A DNA stretch of 64,000 bases from Branchiostoma floridae (taxonomy: Eukaryota; Chordata; Leptocardii; Amphioxiformes; Branchiostomatidae). Made by a program: the position numbers and the translations under genes. Below are positions 10,761 through 49,721 of the stretch, one piece after another. Where the stretch lies: contig NC_049981.1 of the NCBI RefSeq assembly GCF_000003815.2, positions 17,299,115 to 17,363,114 on the forward strand, written 5' to 3'. The notes beneath the pieces were generated by a model. It was given only the letters and a program-made list of their open reading frames with translations, did not search any database and was not told the origin of the DNA. How positions within the stretch are numbered: the first letter of the stretch is position 1; every line of letters starts with the position of its first letter.

Positions 10761-11467
10761 ATGGAGGACGGGGAATGTGACATTGCAATTATAGACGGGA
10801 TGCCCCCGTCAGCGGACGGGAGAGCCACCATGGACGGCACCATGAACCGGGTAGAGCAGCTCCAGGAGGAACCGTGCGAGAGGAACGATGAAGACGAAAG
10901 GATCTTCGTCAAAAAATGGCAAATAGCCTGCGTGTTGATGTTCGTGCTTGTTGCCGTTTTAGCAGCGGTGTACTTCGTCGTTATTCGCACGAAGGTAAAC
11001 AGATCGCCCCATAATTTCTACACCGCCAGAAGCAGTCTTGAACCGTTTTACCCTGCTCCGACCTTCCCGACCACCGAAGGACCGCAAGAAATCACTCGGC
11101 TTCCAGAATACCTCCTCCCGTATAATTACAAAGTGAAATTACGTCTCGATCTGTCGGAGACTACATTTACTGGATCGACGACAATAAATCTAAGATGTCT
11201 ACAAGCGACCCAAGTGATAGTGCTAGATTGCATCGAAGGTAACATTACCAACGCGTCGGTATCAGTGGTAGATTTGACGACGGCTGATGTGCAGGTTGTG
11301 ATTGACTTATTATATGACGACAGCGAGGGACGGCTCGTGGTTTATCTTGGGAAAAGACTTCAAGAAGGTCGTATCTATAAACTAGAGATAGCGGAATTTA
11401 CGGGAGAACTGCGCACGCAACCTCCAGGCCTCTACACTACAGATTACAGGCACAGTGATGGTTTACG
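10761..11467 (+). CDS. gene A exon 1: cytoplasmic tail, TM anchor, N-terminal beta domain
   Basis: Encodes residues 1-235 plus two bases of codon 236. It starts at the ATG with an in-frame upstream TAA. The hydrophobic run at residues 53-75, after a KK pair, is a signal-anchor giving type II topology. It carries potential N-glycosylation sites NIT (161) and NAS (164), and GLYTTDY at 223-229, matching the GLYRS-Y block of the family. Donor: GTTTACG|GTAGGG. Confidence 0.92.
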
Positions 11468-23400: not shown

Positions 23401-26400
23401 TTCACTTGGATCATGTTACCAAATATCCAATGCCTATCTATACCAAATTTCAGGTCATTTAATTGTAATACCAGGGTACAGGGGGCCAAAATATACCGTT
23501 TTGGTCTAAAAATTACCATAAAACCTCAATAAAATCATTTTAAAGGCAGATATGAAAAAATGTAAAAAGGCACAAGGGTATTTCCCCACTCTACCCTTGT
23601 GCCAAATTTCAAGTCATTCGGTCCAGGAACGGCGGAGATGAATCACTTTGAAAATTTGACAGGAGAAAGAAGAAGAACCATTACGAATACAATATATTTC
23701 ACCATACCTATGGTATGGCTGAAATACAAATATAATAGGGCAAGGAGGGCCTGGAGCTTATGCTTATATAATGGTCTCATGTATCAAATTATAACTTTGC
23801 AAAGCAAATAAATAACAAATTTGGGCAAAGAAAACAAAGAAGACCAACGGACTACTTACAAAATAACTAATGAAATAATACTATCAAATTACATATCAAA
23901 TTCAACGGAAATGAAAGAAAATGAAATTACTTAAATCAAAAATAAAATAGATGAATTCCAAATGTTACGCAACTAAGTAAGATAAAATAAGGAAAACAAA
24001 CAAATCAGGAGTCAGTAGATGGCTTATCTACAAAGTATTTTCAGGTATTTTTGGAAAAAGACATAGAATTTTGTGATTGACTTACTTAAATTGTTCCAAA
24101 CTGATGGACCTGGAAACAGTATTGTAAATTGTTATCGGTTAGATTTTGTCATGATTTGCCTTAACCCTATTCAGACCGGGGGGGGGCTTTTGAGGCCCGC
24201 GCCTACTTTGATGTCCTATAACGCCAGAACGGCTTACGCTAGGGCCACCAAATTTGGTGAGTTTTCCTAAAATATTGTTGGCAACAATTTCACGAAGTTT
24301 GACAAATTTTCCATATTTTCGTGTTGCCATGGCAACCGTTTGTTGACAGGCTGTTTTGCCAAAAATCACTATTTTTGGTTCTAACAATGTATTTTTCACA
24401 TTTATTTGCTATATTACTGCTATTTTGTTACATAAATAAAATCTTATATTATCTAGCATATCTTTCATAATTATATATGCATAAATTATGCTAATTTGAT
24501 GACGTCATCGGCCCAAAATCCAAGATGGCGGACCGTATGGCCAGATCAAGAATAACGAGCTAATTATCCCTTAAAATTTATAACTACCTGGTATTTTTTC
24601 ATCAAAAACCATCTAAATGAATGAATTAAGTCTATTTCCATTGCCCTTTGTGATTATTTGTTGCAAAAAAAGTATTTTTAGAAATTCAAGGTGGTGGATA
24701 TAATATGGCGGAGCCCAACTGGTATCTTTGATGTGTATGACGTCATTTTATGACGTCATTTTGACGTCATTGATGTTGCTATTGGCAACGCAAGTCGTAA
24801 TAAACATTATTATTCTGTTATCTGCACTTGTTGTTACATTTTTGTAGAATAACTTGAAGTTTTCTGAGAATACCCTTTTTTCATGGGTCCGGCCAATATA
24901 ATCAAATTGATGACGTCATTATTACGTCATCTTACGTCAACGTAACGTCAAACGTCAAATACTTGTCAGATATTATGTCGATATCATGTCCTAAAAATTT
25001 GGTGGCCCTACGGCACGTCGTTTTAGAATTATAGGACTTCAAAGTGGAGGGCCTCAAAAGCCCCCCCCCGGTCCAGGGATGACCAAAAAAGCCCGGTCTG
25101 AATAGGGTTAATTTGTTTCTGGTACTTTGTCTATGGATATCTGAGTTGAATTTGCATAATTTATATCTGAGTTGAATTTGTATAACTCCTTGAGTTGCAC
25201 TAGTAAATGGGAAATTTTGTGGATTTCTTTGAGGACGAAAATGGTTGGTTGTAGTTTGTTTACGTTCTAACTCTCAAATCCTGAAATAGAGTCTATATCT
25301 ACAATCTACAAATCTAACGATTGAAATTGGTAGCGAGGAGCCTGGTAGTTTGTTAAAATACGGACTATCTCGAGATGCTTTGCATGCAGACGGGTGTAAG
25401 CTAGAGGACACACCATATGCCCTCACTCGGGTGTAGTAAGGTGGAGAAGAGAAAGACGAGCCTGGAGCGATGAATTGATGACGGTGAGGATGAAAAACGG
25501 AAATAAAACAAAATAAGTTAGATACATAAAAAAAAAGAATGGCGGGGAGGCGTCCAGGTGGATCAAATACCTACTCAGTTTGCCACTGTTCGGTCGAGAA
25601 GGGGTTGTACTAATAGCTCCATGGAGCCAGCTCCATGGAGCCAGCTCCATGGAGCTATTAGTACAACCCTGCTCCCAACCTACCAGCTCCATAAAGCCAG
25701 CTCCACGCAATTTGAATACATACAATTGGTTCACGTCACCTTCAAAAGAAATTTATATTTCGCTTTGAATACATACAGTTAGTTCACGTCATCATAGGAA
25801 AAATCTTAGTCGGCTATAGAGCCGCCCTTGTAAACGAAAAACAAGTTTCATGGAGCCAGCTCTATGAACTTTGAATGTATACAATTGGTTCTCGTCACCA
25901 CAGTAAAAAATCTTTATATAGTCCGCTATGGGGCCGCCCTTGTAAACGAAAAACAAGTTTCATGGAGCCAGCTCTATGAACTTTGAATTATACAATTGGT
26001 TCTCGTCACCACAGGAAAAAATCTTTATATAGTCCGCTATGGGGCCGCCCTTGTAAACGAAAAACAAGTTTCATGGAGCCAGCTCAATGAACTTTGAATG
26101 TATACAATTGGTTCTCGTCACCACAGGAAAAAATATTTATATAGTCCGCTATGGGGCCGCCCTTGTAAACGAAAAACAAGTTTCATGGAGCCAGCTCTAT
26201 GAACTTTGAATGTATACAATTGGTTCTCGTCACCACAGGAAAAAATCTAAGTCCGCTATGGGGCCGCCCTTGTAAACGAAAAACAAGTTTCATGGAGCCA
26301 GCTCAATGAACTTTGAATGTATACAATTGGTTCTCGTCACCACAGGAAAAAATATTTATATAGTCCGCTATGGGGCCGCCCTTGTAAACGAAAAACAAGT

Positions 26401-29400
26401 TTCATGGAGCCAGCTCTATGAACTTTGAATGTATACAATTGGTTCTCGTCACCACAGGAAAAAATCTAAGTCCGCTATGGGGCCGCCCTTGTAAACGAAA
26501 AACAAGTTTCATGGAGCCAGCTCTATGAACTTTGAATGTATACAATTGGTTCTCGTCACCACAGGAAAAAATATTTATATAGTCCGCTATGGGGCCGCCC
26601 TTGTAAACGAAAAACAAGTTTCATGGAGCCAGCTCTATGGACTTTGAATGTATACAATTGGTTGTCGTCACCACAGGAAAAATCTTTATATAGTCCGCTA
26701 TGGGGCCGCCCTTGTAAACGAAAAACAAGTTTCATGGAGCCAGCTCTATGAACTTTGAATGTATACAATTGGTTCTCGTCACCACAGGAAAAAAAATCTT
26801 TATATAGTCCGCTATGGGGCCTTGTAAACGAAGAACAAGTTTCATGGAGCCAGCTCTATGAACTTTGAATGTATACAATTGGTTCTCGTCACCACAGGAA
26901 AAAATCTTAGTCCGCTATGCAACATTCTTCGTAGAGGCGGGTTTGATACTATATTATGCCACCGTGGATCTGAGATTATTATCATCGTCTTCCTGGAGGG
27001 ACCTAAAACGGGGGTCTCGTGCTCGAGGACTCATTACTCAACACATTGGGTACCTACTGGGATGCAAAATACACCAGATAATACTATTATTATTAATAAT
27101 TGTCAAACGGGTGCCTTCGGGGTAGTGGACATGTTCTATTAACCTCTCATATTCTATAACAAAACAGAAGATTTGAAAATAAGATTGAGTCTTGCGACAG
27201 GTGTAGATCTCCCACGCGGGACTTCGTCATGGGCTTCGGGGCAACCCCTTTTATTATTGTGCATTATCTTATCCATACATGTTTTTATTGTTTGTTTTTC
27301 CGGCACTAGCGTTGTCTGCCCGGCCCCCCTCCGGTTATCAGTCGGTGAGCTGCTAGATAATTGTTACAGGCTGTGACAAGCCACGGTGGGAGTTTCACGG
27401 TGGTCAAGCCGTAAAACGCTTTGTAACGATTAGCAGGGAGGTGCCTATGCCTCAGTACACGGTCCNNNNNNNNNNNNNNNNNNNNNNNNNNNNNNNNNNN
27501 NNNNNNNNNNNNNNNNNNNNNNNNNNNNNNNNNNNNNNNNNNNNNNNNNNNNNNNNNNNNNNNNNNNNNNNNNNNNNNNNNNNNNNNNNNNNNNNNNNNN
27601 NNNNNNNNNNNNNNNNNNNNNNNNNNNNNNNNNNNNNNNNNNNNNNNNNNNNNNNNNNNNNNNNNNNNNNNNNNNNNNNNNNNNNNNNNNNNNNNNNNNN
27701 NNNNNNNNNNNNNNNNNNNNNNNNNNNNNNNNNNNNNNNNNNNNNNNNNNNNNNNNNNNNNNNNNNNNNNNNNNNNNNNNNNNNNNNNNNNNNNNNNNNN
27801 NNNNNNNNNNNNNNNNNNNNNNNNNNNNNNNNNNNNNNNNNNNNNNNNNNNNNNNNNNNNNNNNNNNNNNNNNNNNNNNNNNNNNNNNNNNNNNNNNNNN
27901 NNNNNNNNNNNNNNNNNNNNNNNNNNNNNNNNNNNNNNNNNNNNNNNNNNNNNNNNNNNNNNNNNNNNNNNNNNNNNNNNNNNNNNNNNNNNNNNNNNNN
28001 NNNNNNNNNNNNNNNNNNNNNNNNNNNNNNNNNNNNNNNNNNNNNNNNNNNNNNNNNNNNNNNNNCGCAGATCGTGGCTGTGCGGGCTTGTGTATGCCTA
28101 CAAGTATAGCAAACTACAAATTTCTCTAGAAGGTGACGTGAAACATGTATAGTATTCAAAGTGCGTAGAGGTGGAAAAATGTACGCCGTGGCTGTGCGGA
28201 CTTGTTTACAAGAATAGCTATATAGCGAACCATATAATTCTCTTGGAGGTGACGTGAAACATGTATAGTATTCAAAGTGCGTAGAGGTGGAAAAATGTAC
28301 GCCGTGGCTGTGCGGACTTGTTTACAAGAATAGCTATATAGCGAACCATATAATTCTCTTGGAGGTGACGTGAAACATGTATAGTATTCAAAGTGCGTAG
28401 AGGTGGAAAAATGTACGCCGTGGCTGTGCGGACTTGTTTACAAGAATAGCTATATAGCGAACCATATATTTCTCTTGGAGATCTCGTAAATATAGCATAG
28501 TATCAAAGTGCGTAGAGGTGGAAGAATGTACGCCGTGGCTGTGCGGGCTTGTTTATTGTTTACAAGAATAGCGAACCATAGATTTGCCTTGGAGGTGACG
28601 TGAAACATGTATAGTATTGAAAGTGCGTAGAGGTGGAAGAATGTACGCCGTGGCTGTGCGGGCTTGTTTATTGTTTACAAGAAATCGAACTCTAAATTTC
28701 TCTTGATGGTAAAGTGAAACATGTCTATGTATTCCAAGTGCGTAGAGGTGAAAGAATGCGGGTCGTGGCTGTGCAGGCTTTTTTATTGTTTACAAGAGTA
28801 GCAAACTATAAATTTCTATTGAAGGTGAAATGAAACCTGTCTATGTATTCGAAGAGGTGAAAGAATGTGTTACCAAGGCGTCTCCATAGCGGACTATAAT
28901 TTTTTCTTGATGTGACGTGAACCAATTGTATGCATTCAAGAAAACTATAAATTTCTATTGAAGGTAACGAGAAACGTGGTTATGCATTCAAAGTGCGTGG
29001 AGCTGGCTCCATGGAGGTGGGAGGTTGGACGCAGGGTTGTATTAATACCTCCATGGAGCTGGCTCCATGGAGCTGGCTCCATGGAGGTATTAGTACAACC
29101 CCTATTGGTTCGGTCTTGTTATTTCGCCCACATCTCTTCCCGGACAGAAGGCAAAGTGTAAGCGCAGCAACTCTGGATCTTTCGGTTACTGCCTCAGCTC
29201 GGGTATTGAGTAGCTTTACCGACTCACCTTTGTATCCTGAGTTGATAGAGACGAGGGCGGAGACACCGATCTTGACTCGCATATATTGAGTATTTATTCT
29301 ATGTAGGGTTAGTATTACAAACCGCCATTTGTCTAAAAGTCCTGATGTCCCTAATTGATCTTTGTGTCCGAATACGATGCGTAAGTCCGTGGTGAATCCA

Positions 29401-35400: not shown

Positions 35401-38400
35401 GGGAACTTATTACATCCACAAATAGACTGCTCTATTGGCACCGGATATAGCGCCTCCGGGGCCGCATCAATGTCTGAGAGAAGATTGAAAAGAAAGAGGG
35501 GATCCGGCGGGTGACTCTTCTACTGCCGCGTTACTGTTGGACTGAAATTGAGTAGCCCAGGAAGGTCAGAATCCGTGGCGTGAATGCCCACATTGATTGT
35601 AAATTGCCTGCCAGTTATTATGATGGAATAGATGATCTCGAATGAGGTTAGAAAACGGCTTACGGGTTTCCCCTTTTTCTTGACACCGTGGCAACAAAAT
35701 TTACCGCCTGGAGAGTTTTAATACCACTACTTCGTCGGGTAGAGGAAAACGGGGCAAGGGGTAAGCTTTCGTACCATGAATGGTTTGGCAACGGAGGTGG
35801 AACAAAATGTGGTAACCTTCTTAACTTATCTTAGTTTAGTATTGCTTGCCAACCTAAAACGCACCATACAACATCCCTGTAAAAGCTACTTGACAAAGAA
35901 TCATGCTTCACGTCAGTTGAAGATGGCAAAATAGACATTCTTGCATGGTTAGTATAGCCTAAAAGACCTCACCACAAACTTTAACCCTGTTATATTTTTG
36001 GGACACTGTGTGTATGTTAGGATATCACTCATACTCATTGGGGTTCTGATTTTGTAATTTGTACCTTTTTTGGTTATATTTTGTCTTATCTTTATCTCCA
36101 ACAAACCTGAAGGCGGATTGAGCTTTCGTGTATAAACAAAACCCCATAATTTGATTTGAATATTGTGTTCTATTTTCCAGGCAGATGTGTGCTATTTACT
36201 ACCCTTTATTTGATGTGTGTTGTGTGCTATTTCCCAGAGAGATTTGCGATATTTACCACCCTTGATGTGAATGTTGTGTGGTATTTTCTAGGCAGATACG
36301 TGATAGTTTATGTGAATGTTGCTTGGTATTTTCCAGGCAGATGTGTGATGCGTAATAACAATGAGTTGTGTTCTTTTTTCAGATGTGTAATATTCTATTT
36401 TAATGCTGTGTGCTATTTTGAGGTAGACGTGCGATAGTTGATGTGAATGTTGTGTGATATTTTTCAGCCAGCTGCTGGTGTCCAGTCTGAAGCCTATGGG
36501 TGCTCGGTACGTCTTCCCCTGTATGGACGACCCCGCCATGAAGGCCACCTTTGACGTCACCATAGAACACCCAAAAGGTCAAACATTCCATTTACCTCCT
36601 ACATCTCTACTGCTTTCTGCATTTGTAAGCATTAAATCCCCATGCCTAAGAGTTGCGGGTGCCAATTTTAGCTCCCTGGCCCTTGGGCCACACAGCTGTG
36701 CAAGCAAAGATAAACCTACAGAAATGGACCAGTCCACTGTGTGTTCAACTTCTATTCTCAGAAGTACTGGGTGCTGAGCGAAAAATAAGTTTGCCATGTA
36801 CCATTTTCAAGTCATTAGTGCAACTCATCTTAGATCTCTATATAACAACAGTCTTAGCTGTACCCAAAATTTATTACCTGAACAATAGGATTATCTTGTA
36901 CTAATACTTTTGCACTTTATCAGAAACTCTGACCTGGTGTAAATTTCTGACCAGTTTTTCACAGCGCTATGTACATTACTTGATGCAAATAAATCAAGCT
37001 GTTGGGTAAATTCTCTAAAAAGTAATAAATATCACCAGAGATCGTTTCACTCAGTGATGAAAGATAATAGAGGCTAAATGAAATGCTTGACACTTAAAGG
37101 AACCTATCTAGTTGTGGTAACGGTCCATCTGGATATCTAACCTTCCTCGAAGAATTTTCGTACCTTGCATTCCTAATCATGTTGGCACTCTACTTCTACA
37201 TCTAATATGATGGTGCTTTGTGATACCAGGTCAAACGGCTCTGTCCAATATGCCGTCCAAGACAAAGACAGTCCTGACTGACGGATGGGTCAGAGAAGAA
37301 TTCTACCGAACTCCTAAGATGTCCACCCACCTGCTGGGATTCGCGTTATTCGATGGGCTCACCAGTCTTGAAGCAGTCATTTCCCGAGGGAGGGTGGTGA
37401 GTAACTGGAATGACAGTTGTAATGTCCATTTACGACGTGTTTCTGGTTTTACGACATATTTCTGATTTTAAGACAGGATGAAAAGCAAATGGCATGAACT
37501 TTGTCAGACTGAGGATCATATTAAAGTTTTACGAACGTTCTATGATGCTATTCCAATCAGAGATGTTTATCGTGATGATCATTAAGTCGCATATAGTTTT
37601 ATTTATGTTGAAGGCAGGCCAATTATCAGCCATTGATGGAAGTCCATAATCTTTGGAGTTTAAAGGTTTCATATTTATTATCTAAGATGAGTCACCTTGA
37701 ATTTAGGTGTCACATTTCAGATTGAAAAGCAAGATGCTTGAGTCATTGTATTGTACAGAATGTGCCGTAACGTATTACAGATCATCCGTTAGCGTTATGC
37801 TTTACATAATTTTCAACTTTGTCATAGTGAAATAGCCCACTTAGTCCTGCTGCCGCAACGGTCTAAACGCCCTTCATAAAAACGAGGTCATTGGTAAATC
37901 GTTTTCACATGAGGTCACCATTATGTCTGACGCCATGTTGGTGTCCCTAATCGCATATCATAGCTGTGTTTTCAGTCGACATTTCAGGATTTACTTGCTG
38001 TCTCAACAACCCAAAGAAGAGGACACTAGAAGAATACGCAAACATTAATCAATGGCAAATAAATTTAGTGTATGCTTACGTATCTACGAGCCTTTGAAAT
38101 GCAAATAGATACACCAACATGGTAACCAGAATCTGCCTGCCTCAGAGATTGCTGAACATTCCTCCTCCAACGCATGTTGATCTTTCAGTGAACAAGCTCA
38201 ACGTATGATAAGCCCAACAACGAAATTGAATCGATATATTTTTCAGGTCCGGGTTTGGGCTCCCTTTGACCCGGAAGAGAATCCGTCCGTAGAGGTCGCC
38301 CTGAACACAACGATTGATGCCATACACAATATAGAACAGTTGGTTCCCGTGGAGTATCAGCTTACAAAAACAGGTATAATGAATTCAATTCAATGTCGTT

Positions 38401-41400
38401 CGGATAATTTGCTAAGTGTGGCTGAAGGTCAGCAAGGCACGAAATCAGGTTGGAAACATTTTTTTTTTAATTTGTCATGTACCATATCCAGATACGTACA
38501 ATATGGAGCTAAAGACAGCTAAAATCTGAAGCATAAAATCTGAATACAAGACATAACTGCACTGTTATTTCGGCTGTGCAGTTTTAGAATGAACCCTACC
38601 AGCATAGATGAATTCTTACAGCCGGCCATGGCTTTCTGACCTTTGCAGCCATGGCTGTGAGCTATATGTGTACAATTTCATATGTGGTTGAAAGTTGGTC
38701 GATAAGGCTGCCTAGTAGTGTTTAAAAGTCGTCTGGGCAAGCTTACCAGCTTATCTCAATAATTCAGAGTCGGGAAAGTCTGCCCTGATCCGATCAGAGA
38801 AGCGATCTAGAGCTAGTATAGGTTGGATCCCAGACTACTTCCAAACCAGCGCCGGTCCTGGTTGAAGAGTTGTCGTGATCAACGTTGTAGTAGGATCATA
38901 AATGTGTGAAAGGGACTATCATTCGATAGATTGTAGACCTCTCCAAACAAAGCACCGCCCTTGATTGGGCCTGGGGAGTGCCATGTTCGGTAGCAAATTC
39001 ATATGAAGGTCCTTGATGTGTGATAGGGGATTAAACTTACAACCAAAAGGATACTGCTAACATGAACCTTTATCGTTCCAGATGTAATTCCTGTTCCAGG
39101 ACTATCAGTGCCTTCTTCCGACTATTGCGGCCTTCTAATGATCAGGGAAACGGCTTTGTTCTGTGACGGGCAGGAATCCAGCATGTCTCAACAACTCAAG
39201 TGTGAGCTGGCAATCAGCAAGGCAGTAGCTCACAACGTAAGGCATTGGGCGTTTTTCCCGAACAAGCTATTTCCTAAAACTGTATAACACCAAGGTCAAA
39301 ATGGGTATCCTCACTGATAGCTAGGTGTCCAAAGAAAAATGCAAACATATAAAATCCGGATAGTCACACAATATGCAAAAGCCTGTTATTACTGACACAT
39401 TTTACACGCTGATAGCTTATTGTCTCGAAGGTGCCATGCCATTGTGGCCATGGTATCCTCTTTGACATTATTTAAGGTAGATTATCCTAATTGATACAGC
39501 GCCAAATTGTCTTGTCTGAATTAACTTTTGTGATAATCATTGCGTGTCTATGTATGCATGTTGACATTGTGTGTATTAGTCTTGTTTTATGCTAATGCTT
39601 TGAATAGAAGGCTTTATGTAAGCAAATTGTGCTTTTGACCTAATACTTATAAAATATGCGAATATATAAAAATCACGGCTGCCGCAATACGTGCATTGGC
39701 ATGCCCAGTGTGTTTGGACAGGTGCACATATAATTGCAGATTAGAAAGATATAGACCCTATGAACCATTATTGCGGTGAAACTTAACCCAGAATGTCCGA
39801 ATAAGCACGATGTATTTGCAAGCTGTGCCTCATGCGTTGTATTCCAAAAAGGCTTTTAAGGACATGTACAGCTTTCGCAAGTACCAGGCAAGGGGCTTGT
39901 ACCTTAGGCTGGCTTATGTTAGCTTTTAGCGTTACCTATGACACGTGGATATTGTGTACCATGTTGATTGACGTTTCAGTGGTTCGGCAACTCCGTCACA
40001 GTGGAGTGGTGGGACGACCTATGGCTGACCGAGGCCCTCAGCACCATGCTTGCATACGAATCAGTCGCATATCAACGCCCAGACGTCAATATTGTAAGTC
40101 GCCACATTTCACAGTTCACAACTTAATAACACCTACATTTCATATTTTATTTTTATTGTTTCTGTAAAGTGAAAAGACGGTTTTTTTTACTTTTACGCTG
40201 TAACTATGTTCCCATTGTAAGGTATAAATATATTCATTGCACGGTATCTTTGAATAATTTTATTCATTCTTATTTACTCAGAAAACACTCAGTAAACATG
40301 GAACGTCCATAACTATACGGATTTCTTGCCCGAAGTTATCGTTTTGCAAATGAGTTCAAATCATGATTGTTCTTCATTTAGAACTAGCAACTGATCAATT
40401 TTGGGTTAAAATCATTTCTTCAGAAAAAAACACGACGAAATCAAATTAGTAAGGGTCTCGAATGATTTTATTCCTTAACCTATTTTCAAATGCAAGTATA
40501 AGCATATGCTTTAGTCAAGCAAAACCACATTTACCGATGACCCGATTTCCGACGCGTGGCTGTATCACTCACCATTTAGCAAATGTAGGGCACATTGAAT
40601 AGAAACATGACATCGGTCATTTCGCTGGCGATGGTTTGACTCCCAGCGCTGTGATCTGGCACCCAAAGGAAACATGCGTGGACTGCAATCTTACATCAAT
40701 CAAAGTCTTGTTATCGGTAGCTTGTATTAGTAGAGCTGGTCAACCCCCGACTGCTGAGATGTACAAAGTGATGTTTTGTTTACGACAAACAACTTTATCA
40801 TAGAGTTACTAATCAATACCCACAAACACGCTTTTCTGTTGCTTTGTAAAATGAAGGCCACTTGTTTCGAATAGAAATACCTTAGGATTATCTCTAAATG
40901 TCAAAGGTATTTCATTTTTAACAATTTATTGATATATAAGTGTTCATAGACTACCAAGCCATTTATGGGTAGATAATTCCCGGTGTCTTACCGACAAAGC
41001 GTACGTGGTCCTATGTATAGTGACCTTGCATCTGGCCCCCCAAAAGTCGCTGAATACCAGCTGTTGTCCACCATCTAGTCTCCTCCACCGGCCTCTCTGT
41101 GGGCAGTGGCAAAAGTTGTTCGGCTAGGCTTGTGACAGGGAGATTCTTTTGGCGGGAAAGGATTATATGCCTTGAGGCGAGTAGTCTACCCACAGCGCAT
41201 CCCGCCTTTCCAGACATAAATCCCCTACTCCCTGTCACGACCCTTCCCCAACAACTTTCACCAATGCCCACAGAGAGGCCGGTGAAGAGGGCTATCGCTC
41301 ATCCGACATGCACAACACCACTGGGAAATGACGCAATAAGGCGCTAAAACACGGCTCACTGTGCATTGTACTTGTCAGAATTTGACCAGGCCAATGAACA

Positions 41401-44400
41401 TGTATATAATGTACCTAGCGTACCAGAGCAGCTCGATTTTACAGTGAGATCATTCTAGCTGAACTGCTCAGAGATCCCTTGTAAACTGATGTTAACATGT
41501 CTATGTTCTACTCCAGTGTGATCTTCAGTGGGATGAGATGATACAACCGGCCATGGCGGCAGACATCTTCTCCAGGGTAGACCTGAGCAGTTACGGGCAT
41601 GCGGCAGCGATAGGAGAGGACCCGGCCGTGGGAGGGAAGGTGAATTTCGTGCTGTGTTTACTGCGAAGAGTATGAGTGTATGGATGACCCCAAAAGAAAT
41701 GAGTGACAAAAAAAAAAATATTCAGAAGAAATGCTTCTAAGCCACATCCAGTCTTGGTCTGTCTTTTAAGTTCACCTCTAGCAGGACTGTAAGAGACAAT
41801 ATCCGCCATTTCAATAGTGTTTTTATTGCCATTCATATGCAAAGAGGGGGATAAGGGCGCTGTGGCCCCATGCCCTGACCATGAGCCTCGTACCCTAGAG
41901 AATAGATCCTCCGGCAAGCATTGACCAGGGATGCTCTTTTGTCACATGTGGCCACATTTTTTTTAAAACAGGCAAACATCTATGAGCGCGCGGATGTCAT
42001 CCGTATGATTAAGTCAGTGTGGCCTTAGTTACACACGAACAATTACACAATAAGATTTTTTTTAAATTGTAGTAGTCACGTGGGTTTTATAATACCATGC
42101 ATGGGTAAGGATTTGTGTTTGATAACGGTAACTAGGACTGAATGTTTATGGATTTATTCGGACCATAATGTCACCTGTATCATTGTTATACTCATCTCGT
42201 AGAACTCTAATGAAAAGCGGCACGAGTTTTTTTTTTCTTTATGAATAAGCAAGAGCTCGAAGAAACAAACATATAGACTGCAAACCTTGATTATGGTAGC
42301 TTTGGATAGAAAAGGAGATGACTCGAAATACTTACGTCTGCTTTTTTCTAACCGCTGTCAGCTGTCATTTGGGTTGTAGCCCTGAGCATGCCAGCGAGAG
42401 GGCGCCTCTTAAACGCTCTGCAGGGAGGGTGGTTTTTACCCAGTCAGTGGACGAGTCTGCTAAGTAACAACATGTTTTACAGGGTATCGGGCTCCTGCGG
42501 ATGCTTGACACCATCATCAGCGACAAAGAGTTCCTAAAGGCAATCGAGGTAAATGATGTGATAACTAGAACCCATGAATTTGTGTCGCACTTTTAACGTG
42601 TAACAGAAAGTGTACTTGAAAACATGATAAAAGTACCCTCCCACCCCCTTTTGAAAAAGTGATGGAAATCATGGCGACCGTACGGTGACAAAACAGGCAT
42701 GGCTTCAATCCCCACTAGGGCAGATAGATACTTAACCCAATGATGAAGATGTGAAAATATGAAATTATACTTACTGTATGGTAGAAAGTGTAAAGTACTT
42801 ACATACTGTTGTCACCACACAGTCCAATAGTCATTGTAATTAGCGTGGGGTCAAATGTCAAGGTATTGACGAGGAACGTTCTATTTTCAGTTGGGGGTTG
42901 GCAGCATGTTTATTGTAACAATGGAGCAACATTGCTGTAGACCGTTTTTAAAAGAGATGTCCGTTTTAGTTTTCAATGCTGTCGTATTTTCTCCCTCAGA
43001 ATGTGTTAGCAAGATTTTCGCACGACAACATGAACAGGTCGCAATTTTGGGACGCAGTATCCGAGGTGAGCCTTTGAATTTTCATTTGCTAACTAAGTTA
43101 TTTGTTGTACACAGGGTGGGCTTCAATGTGCCACTAACCGTGGCATTATGGCTAAAAAAACGACAAAAATCAATAGATAAGTGATTTATCTGGCCGACGT
43201 TTCAGTGGCCTTGTCACATGGCTCAGGGCAACATTAACTGGTTTTAATTTGCAGTATTTACACTGCATAGCAGCAACATCTAGCTGCAGTGTCAAGTCAA
43301 ATCAGTCAAACTGAGTATTGCCATGAAAAAGGGTGGCATGCCGTCACCGAATAATGGACTTGGTACACACGATTGGTGGTGTAAAAAGAACCTTGTTATC
43401 CAGTAATTTTCTACAAGGGTCAGTTGCCCTACCCCCAGTAATGTTAGTGTGAATATAGCTAGGTATATTAACGTACTAAATTTGAACTCTCCCCACAGGC
43501 AACAGGGTTCAGAATAGACGTGGCCGCCTTCATGGAGCCGTGGGTTACACAGCTGGGATATCCGTACGTCTCCATAGGACGGTATCAGGAAAGGGACGAG
43601 TCCAGAAACCAGTACTTCGTCCAGCTGCCATTTTACTACTCCGGCTTTGTTAGCTTTATGCGACACCTGCAAACAATAACGTAGGTTTTACCCCTTAGAT
43701 ATCTACAGATTAATCATAGCTGCAGGGAAAAGTTCCCTTCTCTTTCACTAAGGATGGCTCTCGATATGATTTTCTCAAATGAAAAATCTTATAAACGTTG
43801 ACATAGTCCTATTAATTATATGAATAATATTTCCAATGTCTTTCCTATGTTCATTCCAAGCTTATTATACTATACACTTGCTGGAACATGTTTTTCAGTT
43901 GGGAGATCCCAGTCACGTGGAAGAGCGAAGGTCAAACAGACACCAGACTTTTAACAATGACTGAAGATAAATGTACGTATTGTGATTATTTATTGAAACA
44001 TCGTACCCAGTGTCCCTCACAAATTTGTCAGGGATATAACGTGGACAGGACAAAGAAGTCACATAGGTATAGATGTAACGTTATGATGAATTTGCAAACC
44101 TTGACTTTGTTAGTCGTCCTGTACAATATTCATGAAGTTTAAAAAACGAAGATTTATTCACGTGAGTTGCATATCATGACTTGTTGAAGACTGTGCCCTG
44201 CACTTGCGTCCACTATTACAAAATCTAAAATAGAGCTTCAATAAAGAACAACTTTCCTTACTAGAAATAACGTGACATTTATAGATTGGAACAGCTAAAG
44301 TGTTTGATCCACTATAAAGATCTGACGTATGAAAATATTTCCCATCAGATATCATACCTGATGAGACGTCACCGGAAGAGTGGGTTCTGGGAAACTCGGA

Positions 44401-47400
44401 TTCTCGCGGTTTTTATCGCGTGAACTACGACAACAAGAACTGGGCCCTGCTAGCAGACTACCTCCAATACAACCACACAGTAATTTGATGGATGTAATTG
44501 TCGATTGTAGTGTGAATGTCCGTGGCATTAAACGTTTCTAACTCTTCCCATCTATCAGAGGATGAGTGGTAATAAACAGATAAATATGCCATAAGCTTTT
44601 GTTTTTGAAATCGTGCACATTATGACAGATGAGTGTTAGCTTGTTTATTTTCATTGACGAAAAACAAAACCATCTCTGAATTGGCTGGGTATGCCTGACA
44701 CCTGTCATGAATCATCACTTATTTTCTGTCCACAACATTGGAACCAAACTAGTTATCAAATTTTCGAAATATCCCATTCCACCATTTCCGTCTCCCATTC
44801 TGGTTGGCTGTCCAACCGAGGACGCGCACCAATACAAAATAATAAATAGATAAACAAACACACCAACTGATTACAATACCTCCGGATTTACCTCCGGAGG
44901 TAACATAGCAAATACAATTGAAACGTTGATTGAAAAAAAAAATCATGGCGCTTGTACCATTCTCGTCATTAATTTAAAGTATTTAAAGCGTATTTAAAGC
45001 ATAATTCACACTGTAAACATATCTTAATCTTTTTATATAATTTTTTAAAGTCTTACTTTATGTCTTCGTACTTTCTTAACATGTTCCGTAACTCATGGGC
45101 CAAATTTTACGTGTATCTTTATAATTTTTGTTACACTAATGGGGAGTCGCTTGTATAGAGAGCATACCTATTAGACATTCTAGCTGATACATGTCATGAT
45201 GTGTTTACCAGCTATCTTCGTGTAAAACACGTTCTAAGAACTACTAGGCACGTTTTGACACCCACATGCCATTTACCAGCGCTAGTATAGTATGTGTGAT
45301 ATACATGCTGTGTGTGTAGGTATCATAATTTCGGCTGTAAAATTGATAATGTACCTACTATATTCCCATTATTTCAGTTACTGGAGCCGTCAGTGCGGGC
45401 TGTTCTAATAGACGATGCGTTCAATAACGTAAGGTGAGCTGACATCTAACGGCATTAAGTGGTACTGCATGCATCATAGTGTGTCATCGCAGCAGAAAGA
45501 CTACTTGTAACAGTATTGTATATACATAAGGACCAAGCGTACTACAACTTACCCCACTTGTTAAAAATATCACGAGTGGATTTAAGATATTTCGAAATAT
45601 CCAAGAGAGAAAACAGTAGCAATGAAACTGGAATCATGTAGCGCCAATTCATGAGTCACTTTTCATAGCAATGCAGATAACTATGCTGGTGTTACAATAT
45701 GCATCTACTGGATCGAAGATCCAGCTTACACCACATTTTTTAATCATCCCATCGGCAAGTTTGAAAGCATTCTTAGCATTATTTTCATTTTAAGGCCATG
45801 AGCATTTGAATCGAGAGTTGTTCTAAATGTCAAAACACGCTTGGGTCAAGATACGCTGGAATGCAAATAGAAACACCAACACGGCGCTAGACACAGCAAT
45901 AAAATGGCGTAATTTAAACGTGCCATTCCATAGCGTCTTTGTTACATATAGCAGCACTAACACACGCACTGTTTTCTTTAGGGGGAGTATATTGTTGATT
46001 CCAACAGCAATGGAGATGACCAGATACTTAGATAAAGAAGAGAATTACGTGCCTTGGAGAGCAGCCTTGGATGCCTTGCATTACGTGAAAACGGTCGTAC
46101 ATGGAAGTTGTCCAAGCTCAAGTCAATGCCCATATCATTGCCGGCTACAGGTTAGCTTATCTATTGTTTTACATCATACATGTGGGCATCATGTTTGGCT
46201 GATAGAAATTGCACATGGTGTACCTAGATAAATGAATTACCAATGGGGCAGTATATTTCCGTTGTTTCTCTGATGCATTATCACTTCCACCACATCTCAT
46301 TAACCTAATGGCATGCATGTGTATAGAATCCTGTCGACTGACTTTCTCCTATCAAAGCGTTAACGTTGTATCACAAAAGACGGGATTCTGGAATGCTGGT
46401 TGAAACAGCTAGGACATTAAAATGAGTTTTAAAAATGCTAGAATGCTATAGAATTGAAACACTGTTTATTAATTTGGTGCCAAGTAGAGTCCATTCCAAG
46501 ACACCATGAGGGTTTTCAGGTGATATTTGTAATAAGTTTGAATTATTTTGAATAAAAGAATATCTAAGCCAAAATAATTAACTTTTTTTCCAAAAAATTG
46601 ACTAAGAAAATATTCATCTATTTGAATTCCTTTCAATATTTTAGAAACATTTTGAAAGTAACTGTACAAAAATATCTTTATTTAGAATAATTGTGAAACC
46701 TCGGTGTGATTCTTTCACATTTACAAATATTTACAAATATTTGTAAACTTTGCCAAATGGTTAAATCAGTTTATTGCCCCCATAAAACTAAGCCCTATTG
46801 TTGCCTCTGCATATTTCTAGATTTCACTGCTGGGCACTGGTGGGTCCTTTGTGGTGGACCATTGTTGCATGTCACCCATCCATACTTAGCAAGGATGTGT
46901 GAATTACTATTTTCCCAGCCCACTGACCCATTTACAAAATGTTACAAAAAATGGTAGAAAATGGTAAATAATGGTAGAAAGCTGTTATCATTAATTAGAA
47001 ACCATTAGAAGTATTCAATTCCACATCATGAATATTTCCAAAGTTTTACAGGACCGGGGAAATATTTATAAAGTTGAAACAGTGTTAAAAATATTTCTAA
47101 AGTATCAAATGTCCTAGACATATAATTACAAAACTTTAAAATCAATTCTAAACAATGGCAACAAACATCTGCACGGTGGCTTGGAATGGACTCTATATCA
47201 ATTATGTATTGTACTATTTTTGTCTTTTTTAGTCAAAGTTGAGTGAGGAAAATGATCATACCAATCCTTTTTTTTATGTAATGTTTTTGCAGGAATATAT
47301 AGCAAGAAAAGCAGCGAGAGTTCTAAAAAGGCACACGTTTTACGAAACATCGCCTGAAAAGCGGCTGCTAGTAGCCGTAACATTCAAGGCAGCCTGCCAA

Positions 47401-49721
47401 AATGGAAACAGAAATGTCACGAAACGAGCAAAAATCATGTTTGACAGATGGAAGAGGAAAAGAGTTAGGTAAGAAGGGTTGCAAATTTACTTTTAGCCTA
47501 GTCGCTATTAGCCGTGGGTAAAGCACGATGACAAATATACTACGCAAAGTTTTGGTATAATGGTACAATGTTATTGTAATCATGTGCCAGGTCTTTAATG
47601 ATGATAACTGGCGATACGTTCCTGACACGCACTGATCTGTGGGAGCCGGGACGGCGGCAGACATCGACTTCCTGTCACCTCTGACCCTTCTGATGCCACA
47701 CATCCCGAAGATCAGTGCATGCCGGTCATATAAGTGAAAATTATTAATGAACACCCATAGGCACTATCGATGTTTTAAATTACCATTTTGCGTTCGAAAA
47801 AGGGGAGAATAAGCAATCTACTTGTTCTATTGTGAAACAAGATACCATGATGATTAAACGATCTTTGAAACTTGGGAAACATAGCAACTAAAATGTTAAC
47901 TAACCAATGAAAATATATCATTTTGTCTTCCAGGATACCCCCAGACATCCGGGAATCTGTCATCCACGTGGGGATCTCAGCAGGAGACGAGAACGTGTGG
48001 TGGCATGTGTGGAAGCAGAGTAACGCAAGCGCCATTTCGGCACAGGATCGCCAAATATTCCTCTGTGGTCTCGCCGCGTCACAACAGGAGTGGGTTCTGT
48101 GGAGGTTAATATTTTCATTGGTTAGTTAACATGTTAGTTGATATGTTAACCAAGTTTTAAAGAAGACTTTAAACATAATGGTATCTTATTTTGCCTTTAA
48201 TTTTTCCGAATAGATGACAAATGATAATTTGTTTCATCATAAGATAGTAAGCGAAATCAACACCATGTCTATTCAGGTTTTAATTTCTATTAATGTAGAT
48301 ATCATGTACGTAGAATAAAACTACCTTTAGTGTGTTTACATGCTAATTTAAGAATTGAAATACAATAGACGCAACGTGTACTTTTCAGATATCTTCGTTA
48401 TATTTTCGAAGAAAAAGGCATCACGGTGCAAGAAGCAAGTTTGATATTCAAGTGCGTGACTCAAACTAAAGTCGGCAGAGAGACAGCCTGGAAATTCGTC
48501 CAAGGGAACTGGGAGAAACTTACATCAAAGTGAGTATAGTCAAGTCATGCATAATCTCATATATAGTTACTATGCAGTATACAAAGCGATTTGATATTCA
48601 TAGAATTATTTTTTTGTAACTAGATAAAAGATAAATGCTATCTTTAAGTCCGGACTGAAAAGGTGGGTTAACACTGAACAACTATTGATAATTACTACAT
48701 TTGGATAAGTATTATTTATACATACGTTCGTGCACAATAAGAAGTAAAATATTACGAATTTCAGGCAGCAGAATGTTTTAGATCAGTAATCTGATTGAAT
48801 ATTTCGTGTCATTGTAGAAAGGTGGCATAATGTGGCCATGTTTCTTGGGGCAGTTGACGCAAAATCGACAGATTCTGGAATCAAATCCTGAACAGGCCTA
48901 GAGATGTTGTAGCCCTTTTGAAGGGTAAATAAATGAGTGTGATCTTCGAGATTTTGTAGGTATTGTGTAAAACCGGTATGATACAAACAATAATTTACTA
49001 ACAGATATACGACTTGCGCTAATTTTTGCTTACACCATGTATTCAGATACGCTGATGTCCCGTCCTTACTAAAGGCTATCATCCAATCAACGTTAACGGG
49101 TCTATCGACGGATCAACACTTTCAACAGGTATCATGTTACTACAACTGTGGGGGGTTCTCAAGTGATGTTATCGAAGGGCAGTTGGCTACATCGAGTAGA
49201 TGCAAATGATATCTAAACAGTCACTGTGTGACTTATCTAATTAAATTGATAGTATCGCCGTAAAAATTGTAAGCCGATTTGACATGTATAAAACGACAAC
49301 ATCTCCTAATGCTATTAGAAGACTGTACTTTAAGAATGTGCTTTTGACGTACGGTTTTGCAACAACTGCGTAAATGTATGCTATCTGGCGTGTGCATTAC
49401 TTAGATACAATAGAAAAGGACATTAGAACGTATAGATGACTGTATATAGCTATTTTTAGATAGTATAGAGCTATTCTTAGACAGATGAAGTCAATTTCCT
49501 ATGGGGATGACTATGATGTAAATCGAACTTTTCTGTGTTGATTTCAGCTGGAACACTTCTCAAGTTCAGTACAAGAAAAGTATCTCAGAGATCTGTTAGA
49601 TGACGCCGTGCACGCTACGAGACTGAACCAGAGGTATATTGACAGAAACATGCCTTACCTCCAGGACTGGTTAAAGGTGCCGTGTGCAACACGTGTGGAC
49701 ACAAGAGAAACAAACCCCTAA
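10761..49721 (+). CDS. gene A: M1-family aminopeptidase-like type II membrane protein, predicted pseudoenzyme (19 exons, 996 aa)
   Basis: Nineteen exons join in frame at GT-AG junctions (10761-11467, 36468-36577, 37230-37396, 38247-38373, 39082-39236, 39980-40093, 41517-41639, 42483-42548, 43000-43065, 43499-43680, 43899-43972, 44349-44479, 45378-45433, 45982-46150, 47293-47468, 47934-48104, 48389-48529, 49047-49128, 49548-49721). Residues 1-52 form an acidic cytoplasmic tail, 53-75 a transmembrane anchor, 76-113 a stalk, and 114 onward the M1 ectodomain (LPEYLLPYNYKVKL at 114-127, FPCMDDP at 252-258, WWDDLWLTEALS at 432-443, MEPWVTQLGYPYV in exon 10, GFYRVNYD in exon 12, C-terminal helical domain in exons 13-19). 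Active M1 enzymes need GAMEN, HEXXH-18X-E and a catalytic Tyr. Here these are PSSDY (381-385), KAVAH (417-421) and Gly499; only Glu440 is kept. The protein should therefore lack peptidase activity. A receptor, scaffold or ligand-sequestering role is inference. Paralogue: gene B. Confidence 0.93.
11468..15190 (+). other. gene A intron 1, first part: nothing recognised
   Basis: AT-rich intronic sequence without a supported ORF, RNA gene or transposon. Intron 1 as a whole runs 11468-36467 (25 kb) and is by far the largest in the gene; its repeats are listed separately. Confidence 0.6.
15205..15475 (+). mobile_element. putative tRNA-derived SINE
   Basis: A tRNA-like head (GTCTCATTAGAC near 15223, box A-like; GGGGTTCGATTTCC near 15251, box B-like, with little between them) is followed by a body with AAATGGGTACCTG and GGGAAGGTAAAAGGCGG blocks. 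It ends in an A-run and a CTATTGAACTACCTTTACC tail, the layout of a SINE with a short simple tail. The family name and exact ends are not certain. Confidence 0.5.
15545..15695 (-). pseudogene. C2H2 zinc-finger remnant (three degenerate linker units)
   Basis: Read on the - strand, GGTGATCTGAAGATCCACCT followed by ACTCACACAGGGGAGAAACCC translates as GDLKIHLRTHTGEKP, the end of one C2H2 finger and the canonical linker. A second unit reads GDLKIHLWTHAGEKP and a third is more decayed (TRTVEKL). Units repeat every ~61-62 bp rather than the 84 bp of an intact finger, the Cys pairs are missing, and stops intervene. A fossil, not a working gene. Confidence 0.75.
15701..23400 (+). other. gene A intron 1, middle part: only simple repeats seen
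   Basis: No supported gene. A short (TTTG)n tract lies at 22363-22388. TGACGTCA-type sites occur singly near 22756 and 23311. Everything else appears to be unique, AT-rich intron. Confidence 0.55.
23400..23725 (-). repeat. dispersed repeat, copy 2
   Basis: Reverse complement of the repeat at 345-1000. Shared blocks in order include the GGTATGGTGAAATATATTG end, the CTTTCTCCTGTCAAAT region, CCTGGACCGAATGACTTGAA, ATCTGCCTTTAAAATGATTT and the GGCCCCCTGTACCCTGG region. Two copies on opposite strands show it is mobile or otherwise dispersed. The shared end near 349 / 23722 may be a true element terminus. Confidence 0.7.
24161..25111. mobile_element. piggyBac-like MITE (TTAA target sites, ~951 bp)
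   Basis: It begins TTAA-CCCTATTCAGACCGGG and ends in the reverse complement followed by TTAA (25108-25111). Inverted similarity extends inward through the ATAGGACTT-type block and the GGGCCACCAAATTT block for about 110 bp. A TTAA duplication and TIRs starting CCC are the signature of the piggyBac superfamily. There is no transposase ORF, so it is non-autonomous. A diverged relative lies at 31213-31954. Confidence 0.8.
24500..24945 (+). promoter_or_regulatory. cluster of TGACGTCA (CRE/ATF-type) palindromes inside the MITE
   Basis: Perfect TGACGTCA octamers occur at 24500, 24738, 24751, 24762 and 24911, with near matches TTACGTCA at 24922 and 24932 and further ACGTCA half-sites to about 24955. 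This octamer is the consensus site for CREB/ATF bZIP factors. Whether these bind anything here is untested, and part of the pattern may come from local duplication of a short motif within the transposon. Confidence 0.45.
25602..25669. repeat. left terminal hairpin of the foldback element
   Basis: Arms starting GGGTTGTACTAATAGCTCC at 25602 pair perfectly over 26 bases with the segment ending at 25669. The loop holds further CCATGGAGCCAGCTCC repeats that can pair among themselves. Confidence 0.85.
25785..26925 (+). repeat. tandem array, ~106-113 bp unit, about ten copies
   Basis: TATACAATTGGTTCTCGTCA recurs at about 25878, 25989, 26101, 26214, 26320, 26432, 26539, 26651, 26762 and 26872. Each unit also holds CCGCTATGGGGCCGCCCTTG and ACAAGTTTCATGGAGCCAGC. 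Units differ mainly by presence or absence of a TTTATAT segment (106-107 versus 110-113 bp). Neighbouring copies are almost identical, so the array is young or homogenised. ORFs reading through it are repeat artefacts. Confidence 0.92.
26926..27465. other. unique loop sequence of the foldback element
   Basis: About 540 bp of non-repeated sequence between the left array and the gap. Short open frames only; nothing recognised. If an autonomous element exists, its gene would sit in this loop and be partly hidden by the gap. Confidence 0.5.
27466..28065. other. assembly gap (600 N)
   Basis: Six hundred N between the two inverted arrays. Open frames drawn across it are meaningless. Confidence 0.98.
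28066..28960 (-). repeat. tandem array, ~117 bp unit, inverted relative of the left array
   Basis: GTATTCAAAGTGCGTAGAGG recurs near 28151, 28268 and 28385, then with drift near 28500, 28612 and 28735, decaying toward 28960. In reverse complement the unit reads CTTTGAAT-ATACA-CGTCACC-CGCTAT-CTTGTAAAC in the same order as the left-hand unit. The first three copies are nearly identical, later ones diverged, so the array grows at its gap-proximal end. Confidence 0.88.
29034..29101. repeat. right terminal hairpin of the foldback element
   Basis: Inverted counterpart of 25602-25669: near-palindrome with GTATTAATACCTCCATGGAGC at the left and its complement ending GGTATTAGTACAACCC at the right. CCATGG cores are repeated three times. 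Confidence 0.82.
29450..29725 (+). repeat. hairpin-rich degenerate minisatellite (TTCCAGGCCT / TCCAAGCCT)
   Basis: TCCAAGCCT, TCCTGGAA and TTCCAGGCCT blocks alternate about every 25-50 bp (around 29495, 29557, 29570, 29588, 29618, 29628, 29676 and 29698). The CCTGGAA / TTCCAGG pairs can fold on themselves. It lies just outside the foldback element. An open frame at 29414-29785 is explained by the repeat. Confidence 0.6.
29726..31212 (+). other. gene A intron 1: nothing recognised
   Basis: No supported gene or RNA. Only short open frames. Confidence 0.5.
31213..31954. mobile_element. decayed relative of the 24161-25111 MITE
   Basis: CCTTATTCTGACC, CCGCATAACTCTTGAACGGC-like, CTACCAAACTTGGT, AAAATATTGTT, GTTGCCATGGCAAC, TTTTGCCAAAAAT, TTTTATGCTAATTTCATGA and CAAAGATGGC blocks follow the same order as in the element at 24161. 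The right end is GAGGGTTAA at 31946-31954. The left TTAA is lost. Much older copy than the first. Confidence 0.65.
31955..36150 (+). other. gene A intron 1, last part: nothing recognised
   Basis: No supported gene, RNA or transposon. Short open frames near 32072-32307 have no recognisable product. Confidence 0.5.
36155..36467 (+). repeat. tandem array of 3' splice-site modules at the end of intron 1
   Basis: A ~40-57 bp unit (TGTGAATGTTGTGTG, pyrimidine run, CAG, GCAGATGTGTG) is repeated about seven times. AG ends fall at 36180, 36237, 36291, 36336, 36382, 36422 and 36467. The last is the true acceptor of exon 2, fixed by frame and by the paralogue. Several upstream copies (for example TATTTTCCAG at 36180 and 36336) match acceptor consensus equally well. 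Confidence 0.8.
36468..36577 (+). CDS. gene A exon 2: FPC-D-DP block
   Basis: Residues 236-272 (codon 273 split). Contains KPMGARYVFPCMDDPAMKAT, the family's AR-x-FPCFDEP-KA-F block with DEP changed to DDP. Acceptor TTTTTCAG is the last of a tandem series of similar sites. Same length (110 bp) and phases as gene B exon 2. Confidence 0.95.
37230..37396 (+). CDS. gene A exon 3
   Basis: Residues 273-328. Contains DGWVREEFYRTPKMSTHLLG, matching the family block where FE-T--MSTYLLAF-V- closes the N-terminal domain. Acceptor ATACCAG, donor GTGAGT. 167 bp, identical to gene B exon 3. Confidence 0.95.
38247..38373 (+). CDS. gene A exon 4
   Basis: Residues 329-370 (codon 371 split), starting VRVWAPFDPEENPSVEVALN, the family's -RVWA-P- strand entering the catalytic domain. 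Acceptor TTTTTCAG, donor GTATAA. 127 bp in both genes. Confidence 0.95.
39082..39236 (+). CDS. gene A exon 5: degenerate GAMEN and HEXXH
   Basis: Residues 371-422. The position of GAMENWGL reads PSSDYCGL (381-388) and the HEXXH position reads KAVAH (417-421). The first zinc His is Lys and the catalytic Glu is Ala. RE at 392-393 (family TYRE) and the downstream WFG in exon 6 anchor the alignment. Two cysteines (398, 411) are 13 residues apart, as in gene B. Donor CACAAC|GTAAGG. Confidence 0.95.
39980..40093 (+). CDS. gene A exon 6: WFG to distal zinc-ligand Glu
   Basis: Residues 423-460. WFGNSVTVEWWDDLWLTEAL retains the WW-DLWL-E block. Glu440 is exactly 18 residues after His421, as in HEXXH-18X-E. 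The usual NEGFA is TEALS. Acceptor GTTTCAG, donor GTAAGT. Confidence 0.95.
41086..41284. mobile_element. 199 bp MITE in gene A intron 6
   Basis: CACCGGCCTCTCTGTGGGCA at 41086 is repeated as its exact reverse complement ending at 41284. The arms continue inward through AAGTTGTT and GTGACAGGGAG blocks for about 60 bp. No target duplication is evident at the flanks and no coding capacity; superfamily not assigned. Confidence 0.78.
41517..41639 (+). CDS. gene A exon 7
   Basis: Residues 461-501, ending PAVGGK. With the next exon's G this aligns to the family's YSKG, placing Gly499 where the catalytic Tyr sits. A second in-frame acceptor 12 bp downstream is possible; I chose the upstream one because the gene B exon extends to the same point. 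Donor AAG|GTGAAT. Confidence 0.85.
42483..42548 (+). CDS. gene A exon 8
   Basis: Residues 502-523: GIGLLRMLDTIISDKEFLKA, matching the family block KGA-VLRML---L----F. Acceptor TTTTACAG, donor GTAAAT. Too short to appear as an ORF of its own; found by phase and alignment. Confidence 0.9.
43000..43065 (+). CDS. gene A exon 9
   Basis: Residues 524-545: NVLARFSHDNMNRSQFWDAV, where the family has Y---Y-Y-NA---DLW--L. Acceptor CCCTCAG, donor GAG|GTGAGC. Confidence 0.9.
43499..43680 (+). CDS. gene A exon 10
   Basis: Residues 546-605 (606 split). MEPWVTQLGYPYVSIGRYQE matches the family's M--W--Q-G-PV-----, the linker out of the catalytic domain. Acceptor CCCCACAG, donor GTAGGT. Confidence 0.94.
43899..43972 (+). 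CDS. gene A exon 11
   Basis: Residues 606-630 (631 split): WEIPVTWKSEGQTD region, matching the beta-sandwich W-VP-T. Acceptor TTTTTCAG, donor GTACGT. 74 bp in both genes. Confidence 0.92.
44349..44479 (+). CDS. gene A exon 12
   Basis: Residues 631-674. WVLGNSDSRGFYRVNYDNKN matches the strongly conserved W---N----G-YRVNYD--NW. Acceptor CCATCAG, donor ACA|GTAATTTG; the paralogue's donor is the same octamer. 131 bp in both genes. Confidence 0.95.
45378..45433 (+). CDS. gene A exon 13
   Basis: Residues 675-692 (693 split): LLEPSVRAVLIDDAFNNVR, the family's I----RA-L-DDAF-LA. An alternative donor five bases upstream would break the frame with exon 14, so AAG|GTGAGC is used. 56 bp in both genes. 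Confidence 0.9.
45982..46150 (+). CDS. gene A exon 14
   Basis: Residues 693-749. IPTAMEMTRYLDKEENYVPW matches the C-terminal helical domain block L-LT-YL--E--Y-PW-A. Acceptor TTCTTTAG, donor CTACAG|GTTAGC. Confidence 0.93.
46487..47193. mobile_element. Tc1/mariner-like non-autonomous element in gene A intron 14
   Basis: GAGTCCATTCCAAGACACC at 46487 is mirrored by GGTGGCTTGGAATGGACTC ending at 47193 (one mismatch in 19). The dinucleotide TA flanks both ends (46485-46486 and 47194-47195), as expected for Tc1/mariner insertion. Length 707 bp, very AT-rich, no transposase ORF. Assignment rests on the TA duplication alone. Confidence 0.72.
47293..47468 (+). CDS. gene A exon 15
   Basis: Residues 750-807, helical domain. 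Contains the AC-NG segment (ACQNGNRNV) typical of the family's repeat of helices, and NVT as a possible glycosylation site. Acceptor TTTTTGCAG, donor GTAAGA. 176 bp in both genes. Confidence 0.92.
47934..48104 (+). CDS. gene A exon 16
   Basis: Residues 808-864. IPPDIRESVIHVGISAGDEN followed by VWWHVWKQ and a DRQIFLCGLAAS segment, as in the family's P-LR--VY--GI--G----W-F-W--F and L--ALA-S. Donor TGGAG|GTTAAT. Confidence 0.93.
48389..48529 (+). CDS. gene A exon 17
   Basis: Residues 865-911. GRETAWKFVQGNWEKL matches G---AW-F---NW--L of the family. Acceptor CTTTTCAG, donor GTGAGT. 141 bp in both genes. Confidence 0.94.
49047..49128 (+). CDS. gene A exon 18
   Basis: Residues 912-939: YADVPSLLKAIIQSTLTGLS and a short tail, matching F----L-----------T--EL. 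Acceptor TATTCAG, donor CAG|GTATCA. 82 bp in both genes. Confidence 0.9.
49548..49721 (+). CDS. gene A exon 19, terminal
   Basis: Residues 940-996 and the TAA stop at 49719-49721. The end (NMPYLQDWLK and a short hydrophilic tail) corresponds to the family's terminal helix where --NI-W--------WL is usual. Acceptor ATTTCAG. Confidence 0.92.
   Translation: MEHFSSSVQEKYLRDLLDDAVHATRLNQRYIDRNMPYLQDWLKVPCATRVDTRETNP

Follow-up and report, generated by a model that had tools for sequence, protein, structure and literature searches.

A tail-to-tail pair of putatively inactive, retained M1 aminopeptidase-like genes in Branchiostoma floridae

A gene of the lancelet Branchiostoma floridae encodes a protein of the M1 aminopeptidase family in which the signature HEXXH reads KAVAH. 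The question raised by this locus is whether the gene specifies an inactive protein that has been kept by selection, a decaying pseudogene or merely an artefact of the gene model or the assembly, and, if it has been kept, what the protein might do. We analysed the 64,000 nucleotides that surround it (contig NC_049981.1, positions 17,299,115 to 17,363,114; this whole stretch is called the window, and positions are counted from its first letter). Taking all the evidence together, we put at about 0.9 the probability that this gene (gene A) and a paralogue beside it (gene B) are inactive yet retained.

Gene A was rebuilt as 19 exons on the forward strand (10761-49721) that join into a single frame of 996 amino acids ending in TAA, with GT-AG boundaries at all 18 introns, in agreement with the nineteen exons in uninterrupted frame proposed by an earlier sequence-only reading. 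Exon 1 (10761-11467) encodes a cytoplasmic tail, one hydrophobic segment near the N-terminus (approximately residues 53-75, called by eye), a stalk and the greater part of the N-terminal M1 domain; it ends in a phase 2 donor compatible with exon 2, and the join of these two exons across a 25 kb intron was inferred from phase and homology only. Exons 2-4 (36468-36577, 37230-37396 and 38247-38373) continue the frame between GT-AG introns. Exon 5 (39082-39236) carries PSSDY (residues 381-385) in place of GAMEN, the residues Cys398 and Cys411, and KAVAHN in place of HEXXHQ; its 3' end reads CELAISKAVAHN followed by gtaagg, so that KAVAHN directly abuts the GT donor. Exon 6 (39980-40093) starts with WFGNSVTVEWWDDLWLTEALS and retains Glu440, and exons 7-8 (41517-41639 and 42483-42548) place Gly499 at the position of the catalytic Tyr. 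The remaining coding sequence lies in exons 9-19 (43000-43065, 43499-43680, 43899-43972, 44349-44479, 45378-45433, 45982-46150, 47293-47468, 47934-48104, 48389-48529, 49047-49128 and 49548-49721), the last of which ends with the TAA.

The joined protein matches Peptidase_M1_N at residues 120-307 (E 1.6e-42) and ERAP1_C at 642-962 (E 1.5e-61). In both genes Peptidase_M1_N, Peptidase_M1 and ERAP1_C follow one another in this order above the Pfam cut-offs, the first being partial in gene B, whose exon 1 falls outside the window; six other long reading frames in the window matched no Pfam family. Three structures were used for comparison, namely 4kx7 (glutamyl aminopeptidase) and 4fyq (aminopeptidase N), both of which we take to be human enzymes, and 9ow3 (named Aminopeptidase). 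A preliminary join of 458 amino acids aligned with 4kx7 at E 7.1e-63 and with 4fyq at E 1.4e-62, which upholds the claim that the alignment is anchored on both sides of the altered motif, and residues 1-869 of the final 884-residue ectodomain aligned with aminopeptidase N at E ~5e-105. By descent and fold, gene A is an aminopeptidase N-type M1 protein with a putative membrane segment near the N-terminus. Aminopeptidase N has an N-terminal membrane anchor, and its counterpart in gene A was judged by eye.

With the identities of the catalytic residues in human aminopeptidase N taken as known, alignment to the three structures places Lys417 at the first zinc His and Ala418 at the general-base Glu, while the second zinc His (His421) and the distal Glu (Glu440) are retained with 18 residues between them, giving KAVAHx18E. 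Both the replacement of HEXXH, which is read directly from exons 5 and 6, and the numbering of Lys417, Ala418 and the retained Glu440 thus hold in the rebuilt 19-exon model. The decay is wider than had been claimed, as the loss of GAMEN and that of the catalytic Tyr, presumably Tyr477 in human aminopeptidase N numbering, are additions to the sequence-only reading. From this combination of residues, the ectodomain of gene A is predicted, with good support, to be unable to hydrolyse peptides.

A tblastn search of the window with gene A revealed gene B on the reverse strand, with exons 2-19 at 61972-51311 (740 amino acids in the window). The two genes lie tail to tail, and their stop codons are 1.6 kb apart. 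Exon 1 of gene B was sought at 62-64 kb and not found there, and it probably lies beyond the end of the window. All 17 shared introns have the same phase in the two genes, 12 of the 18 shared exons are of equal length, and the proteins share 350 of 736 aligned residues (48%); residues 7-735 of the 740 in gene B align with 9ow3 (E 5.3e-95). Exon 5 of gene B (59518-59672, reverse strand) has PYDVY for GAMEN and HAVAHY for HEXXHQ, so that the HAVAH signature, merely named in the earlier reading, is the motif of this gene; exon 6 (58877-58990, reverse strand) reads WFGISVTAAWWSDLWVTEALS and retains the distal Glu, and the catalytic Tyr is replaced by Ser. All three zinc ligands are therefore kept in gene B (HAVAHx18E), whereas one has been lost in gene A. 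Neither gene has the HEXXHx18E motif, the GAMEN motif or the catalytic Tyr of an active M1 enzyme, and all five GAMEN residues are replaced in each.

In a six-frame scan of the window, to which motifs split by an intron are invisible, the pattern HExxH occurred in four strings (at 42034 on the forward strand and at 43534, 10946 and 560 on the reverse strand), none of them in an M1 context, and the string at 560 contains a stop. The window thus holds no alternative exon 5 in which HEXXH stands uninterrupted, the first outcome that the earlier reading had named as refuting it, an intron-split motif aside. An assembly error behind the motif of gene A is unlikely, because the same Glu-to-Ala change is found independently in gene B and because the His-to-Lys change takes two base changes.

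Whether the pair has been under selection can be judged from the divergence of the two genes. Over 736 codons, dN/dS between A and B was 0.485/1.929 (NG86), 0.475/1.304 (LWL85) and 0.477/1.979 (ML), which corresponds to an omega of about 0.24-0.36 over the three methods; this value is only rough, since dS approaches saturation overall and has reached it in 7 of the 18 exons. In 60 bootstraps, overall omega ranged from 0.17 to 0.33 with one replicate saturated, and exons 2-6 were saturated in 19 of 60. Compared with the overall dN of 0.485, exons 2-6, which surround the dead site and are among the most conserved between the two genes, had a dN of 0.275, exons 10-19 had 0.554 and the poorly constrained exons 7-9 had 0.862 (omega ~0.5). 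Identity between A and B reaches 55% in exon 5 and 63% in exon 6, against 48% overall.

The nineteen open exons had been taken to argue against a pseudogene, and this argument gains strength from the paralogue and from simulation. No stops, frameshifts or broken splice sites occur in the 19 exons of gene A or in the 18 exons of gene B within the window, despite a dS of about 1.3-2.0 between them. When neutral change was simulated in the frame of gene A at four rates, all 200 runs at every rate produced at least one stop, with a mean of six stops at 0.05 changes per site (substitutions only, indels not being modelled). Because neutral drift yields stops in every run and both frames have none, a pseudogene is very unlikely. 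One might still suppose a gene so recently dead that it has yet to gain stops, citing the lost catalytic residues and the fast evolution of exons 7-9, but the intact GT-AG at 18 of 18 introns of gene A, the openness of both frames and the apparent age of the loss (see below) all speak against this supposition, to which we attach almost no credence. By contrast, the dead paralogue and the low omega lend good support to the view that selection maintains gene A as a membrane-anchored but inactive M1 protein.

For comparison, bacterial and archaeal genomes were scanned once with the alignment of A and B, which yielded 35 prokaryotic M1 loci; HEXXH and GAMEN are both present in all 35, and the dead motif is present in none of them. 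A viral collection gave 28 candidate stretches, with no relative among them. The prokaryotic alignment comprised 31 of the 35 rows (L009, L021, L022 and L024 were omitted) and contained 120 columns that are at least 90% conserved; in 108 of these neither A nor B has a gap. Among the 108, gene A has retained 2 of the 10 catalytic columns and 61 of the 98 remaining ones (Fisher p 0.016), and gene B 3 of 10 and 58 of 98 (p 0.099, not significant alone). As 8 of the 10 catalytic positions have changed in gene A, and 3 of the 7 that are lost in both genes carry the same residue, the catalytic loss appears to be old.

A tree of 17 rows (A, B, the three PDB enzymes and 12 of the 31 prokaryotes) joined A and B in a clade with 100/100 support on a long stem, a relation that is shown only against three eukaryotic-type enzymes; in the region used, A and B are 50.5% identical to each other and 27-32% identical to the PDB enzymes. 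Eighty-one columns show the same residue in all three PDB enzymes and in 10 or more of the 12 prokaryotes. Both genes have kept 47 of them and only one or other of the two has kept 10, while 14 have changed alike and 10 have changed differently. The same new residue is thus found in 14 of the 24 jointly changed columns, including E418A, G381P and N385Y, which cover the base Glu to Ala change and two GAMEN positions. Since A and B form a fully supported clade and share derived residues at the dead positions, catalysis was most likely lost once before the duplication, with the zinc His of gene A being lost later; independent catalytic losses after the duplication are the formal alternative.

What the pair might be kept for is a further question. 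Because the tail-to-tail sister gene is also dead, the two genes have probably long been kept for a job other than cutting. We propose that an ancestor that was already inactive was duplicated to give A and B, that each protein would be seated in the plasma membrane with its M1 fold serving as a surface scaffold, and that it would act by binding a partner protein, in an adhesion or co-receptor role as for Caenorhabditis elegans MNP-1, neither cutting peptides nor gripping their N-termini in the manner of an active enzyme. Partner binding or adhesion, which is our first choice over its rivals, may be given roughly even odds. In active enzymes the free N-terminus of the substrate is contacted by the Glu of GAMEN and by the Gln at column 242; this column is Gln in 30 of the 31 prokaryotic rows, Ser in gene A and Gly in gene B. 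It is the loss of both GAMEN and this Gln that leads us to prefer partner binding or adhesion over the holding of peptide N-termini.

Other roles can be imagined. The two proteins might act as dominant-negative or partner subunits, each combining with the other or with an active aminopeptidase N and tuning it; enzymes of the aminopeptidase N type dimerise, and the ERAP1_C C-terminal domain is retained in both A and B, yet we regard this role as doubtful. That the proteins are still enzymes with altered chemistry is scarcely credible: gene B does retain H, H and E at the usual spacing and may bind zinc, but the general base, the catalytic Tyr and GAMEN are absent from both genes and one zinc His is gone from gene A. 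An empty cleft that binds peptides uncut and shields or delivers them would suit the good conservation of exons 5 and 6, and yeast Tma108 reportedly binds nascent chains through its M1 pocket, according to the accessible part of a review (PMC11266112). Ordinary binding of this kind is unlikely when the GAMEN Glu and the column 242 Gln are lost in both genes, a decoy for the N-termini of the same substrates is less likely because GAMEN is lost, and we consider a peptide trap or decoy improbable. In a more speculative reading, the losses at this one locus may have been stepwise: an inactive ancestor (xAVAH, without GAMEN or the Tyr) would have been duplicated, B would have remained a zinc-binding non-enzyme (HAVAHx18E), and in A the ammonium of Lys417 would replace zinc and pair with Glu440 in a metal-free fold, giving a couple of zinc-dependent and zinc-free receptors. 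This full scheme is offered tentatively and is, as a whole, unlikely.

Among known systems, mammalian aminopeptidase N (ANPEP/CD13) shares the M1_N, M1 and ERAP1_C architecture with A and B and is homologous end to end, with 32% (A) and 27% (B) identity over the compared region, but A and B have lost its HEXXH, GAMEN and catalytic Tyr. TAF2, a TFIID subunit, has an M1-like fold without catalysis and is nuclear. The nearest precedent is C. elegans MNP-1 (matrix non-peptidase homologue), which the accessible parts of two papers describe as a presumed-inactive M1 protein that functions in the migration of muscle and neuronal cells (PMC10368266, PMC4418752). Essential active-site residues are missing from it as from A and B; MNP-1 is described there as being without three of the four, whereas of H, E, H and E gene A is without two and gene B without one. 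Tma108, the only inactive M1 candidate named in the accessible part of the pseudopeptidase review, belongs to M1 as well and may have a binding role that is not enzymatic, but unlike A and B it retains HExxHx18E and is associated with nascent chains rather than being a surface protein (PMC11266112). No published account of the A/B pair was found among the literature matches listed, whose coverage leaves out most subscription papers. On sequence grounds, then, A and B are best described as a retained pseudoenzyme pair, of a kind already known among M1 proteins. In M1 proteins of the cell surface, CD13 among them, enzymatic roles exist alongside non-enzymatic ones, and the two are difficult to disentangle in animals; a pair from which catalysis has been stripped to different degrees, yet which remains constrained, would amount to a natural separation-of-function experiment. 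In particular, comparing B, which has the zinc triad, with A, which has Lys for one ligand, would test whether the fold or a binding role depends on the metal.

Some further features of the two genes were observed. Cys398 and Cys411 of gene A, just upstream of the dead motif, are present in gene B as well, and neither position is Cys in the 31 prokaryotic rows or the three PDB enzymes; a new disulfide between them is possible. The start of intron 12 is similar in the two genes (44480-44524, forward strand, in gene A and 55747-55702, reverse strand, in gene B; 89% over 46 columns, E 4.4e-11), and this is the sole significant match among the 17 same-numbered intron pairs. The donor reads ACA followed by GTAATT in both, and retention of the intron would add NHT-V-I-stop. 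No RNA structure stands out at this conserved start (four folds, z 0.25 to 1.23) and nothing matched Rfam at the gathering score; the conserved start may possibly be a regulated splice site or specify a truncated isoform.

Intron 1 of gene A contains, at 15546-15694 on the reverse strand, 2.4 tandem copies of a 62-nt unit with C2H2 zinc-finger-like coding potential (HTGEKP-like, the family being assigned by eye). The same intron holds two satellite-like tandem arrays, at 25763-26919 (112-nt unit) and 28073-28854 (116-nt unit), which flank a gap of 600 Ns at 27466-28065.
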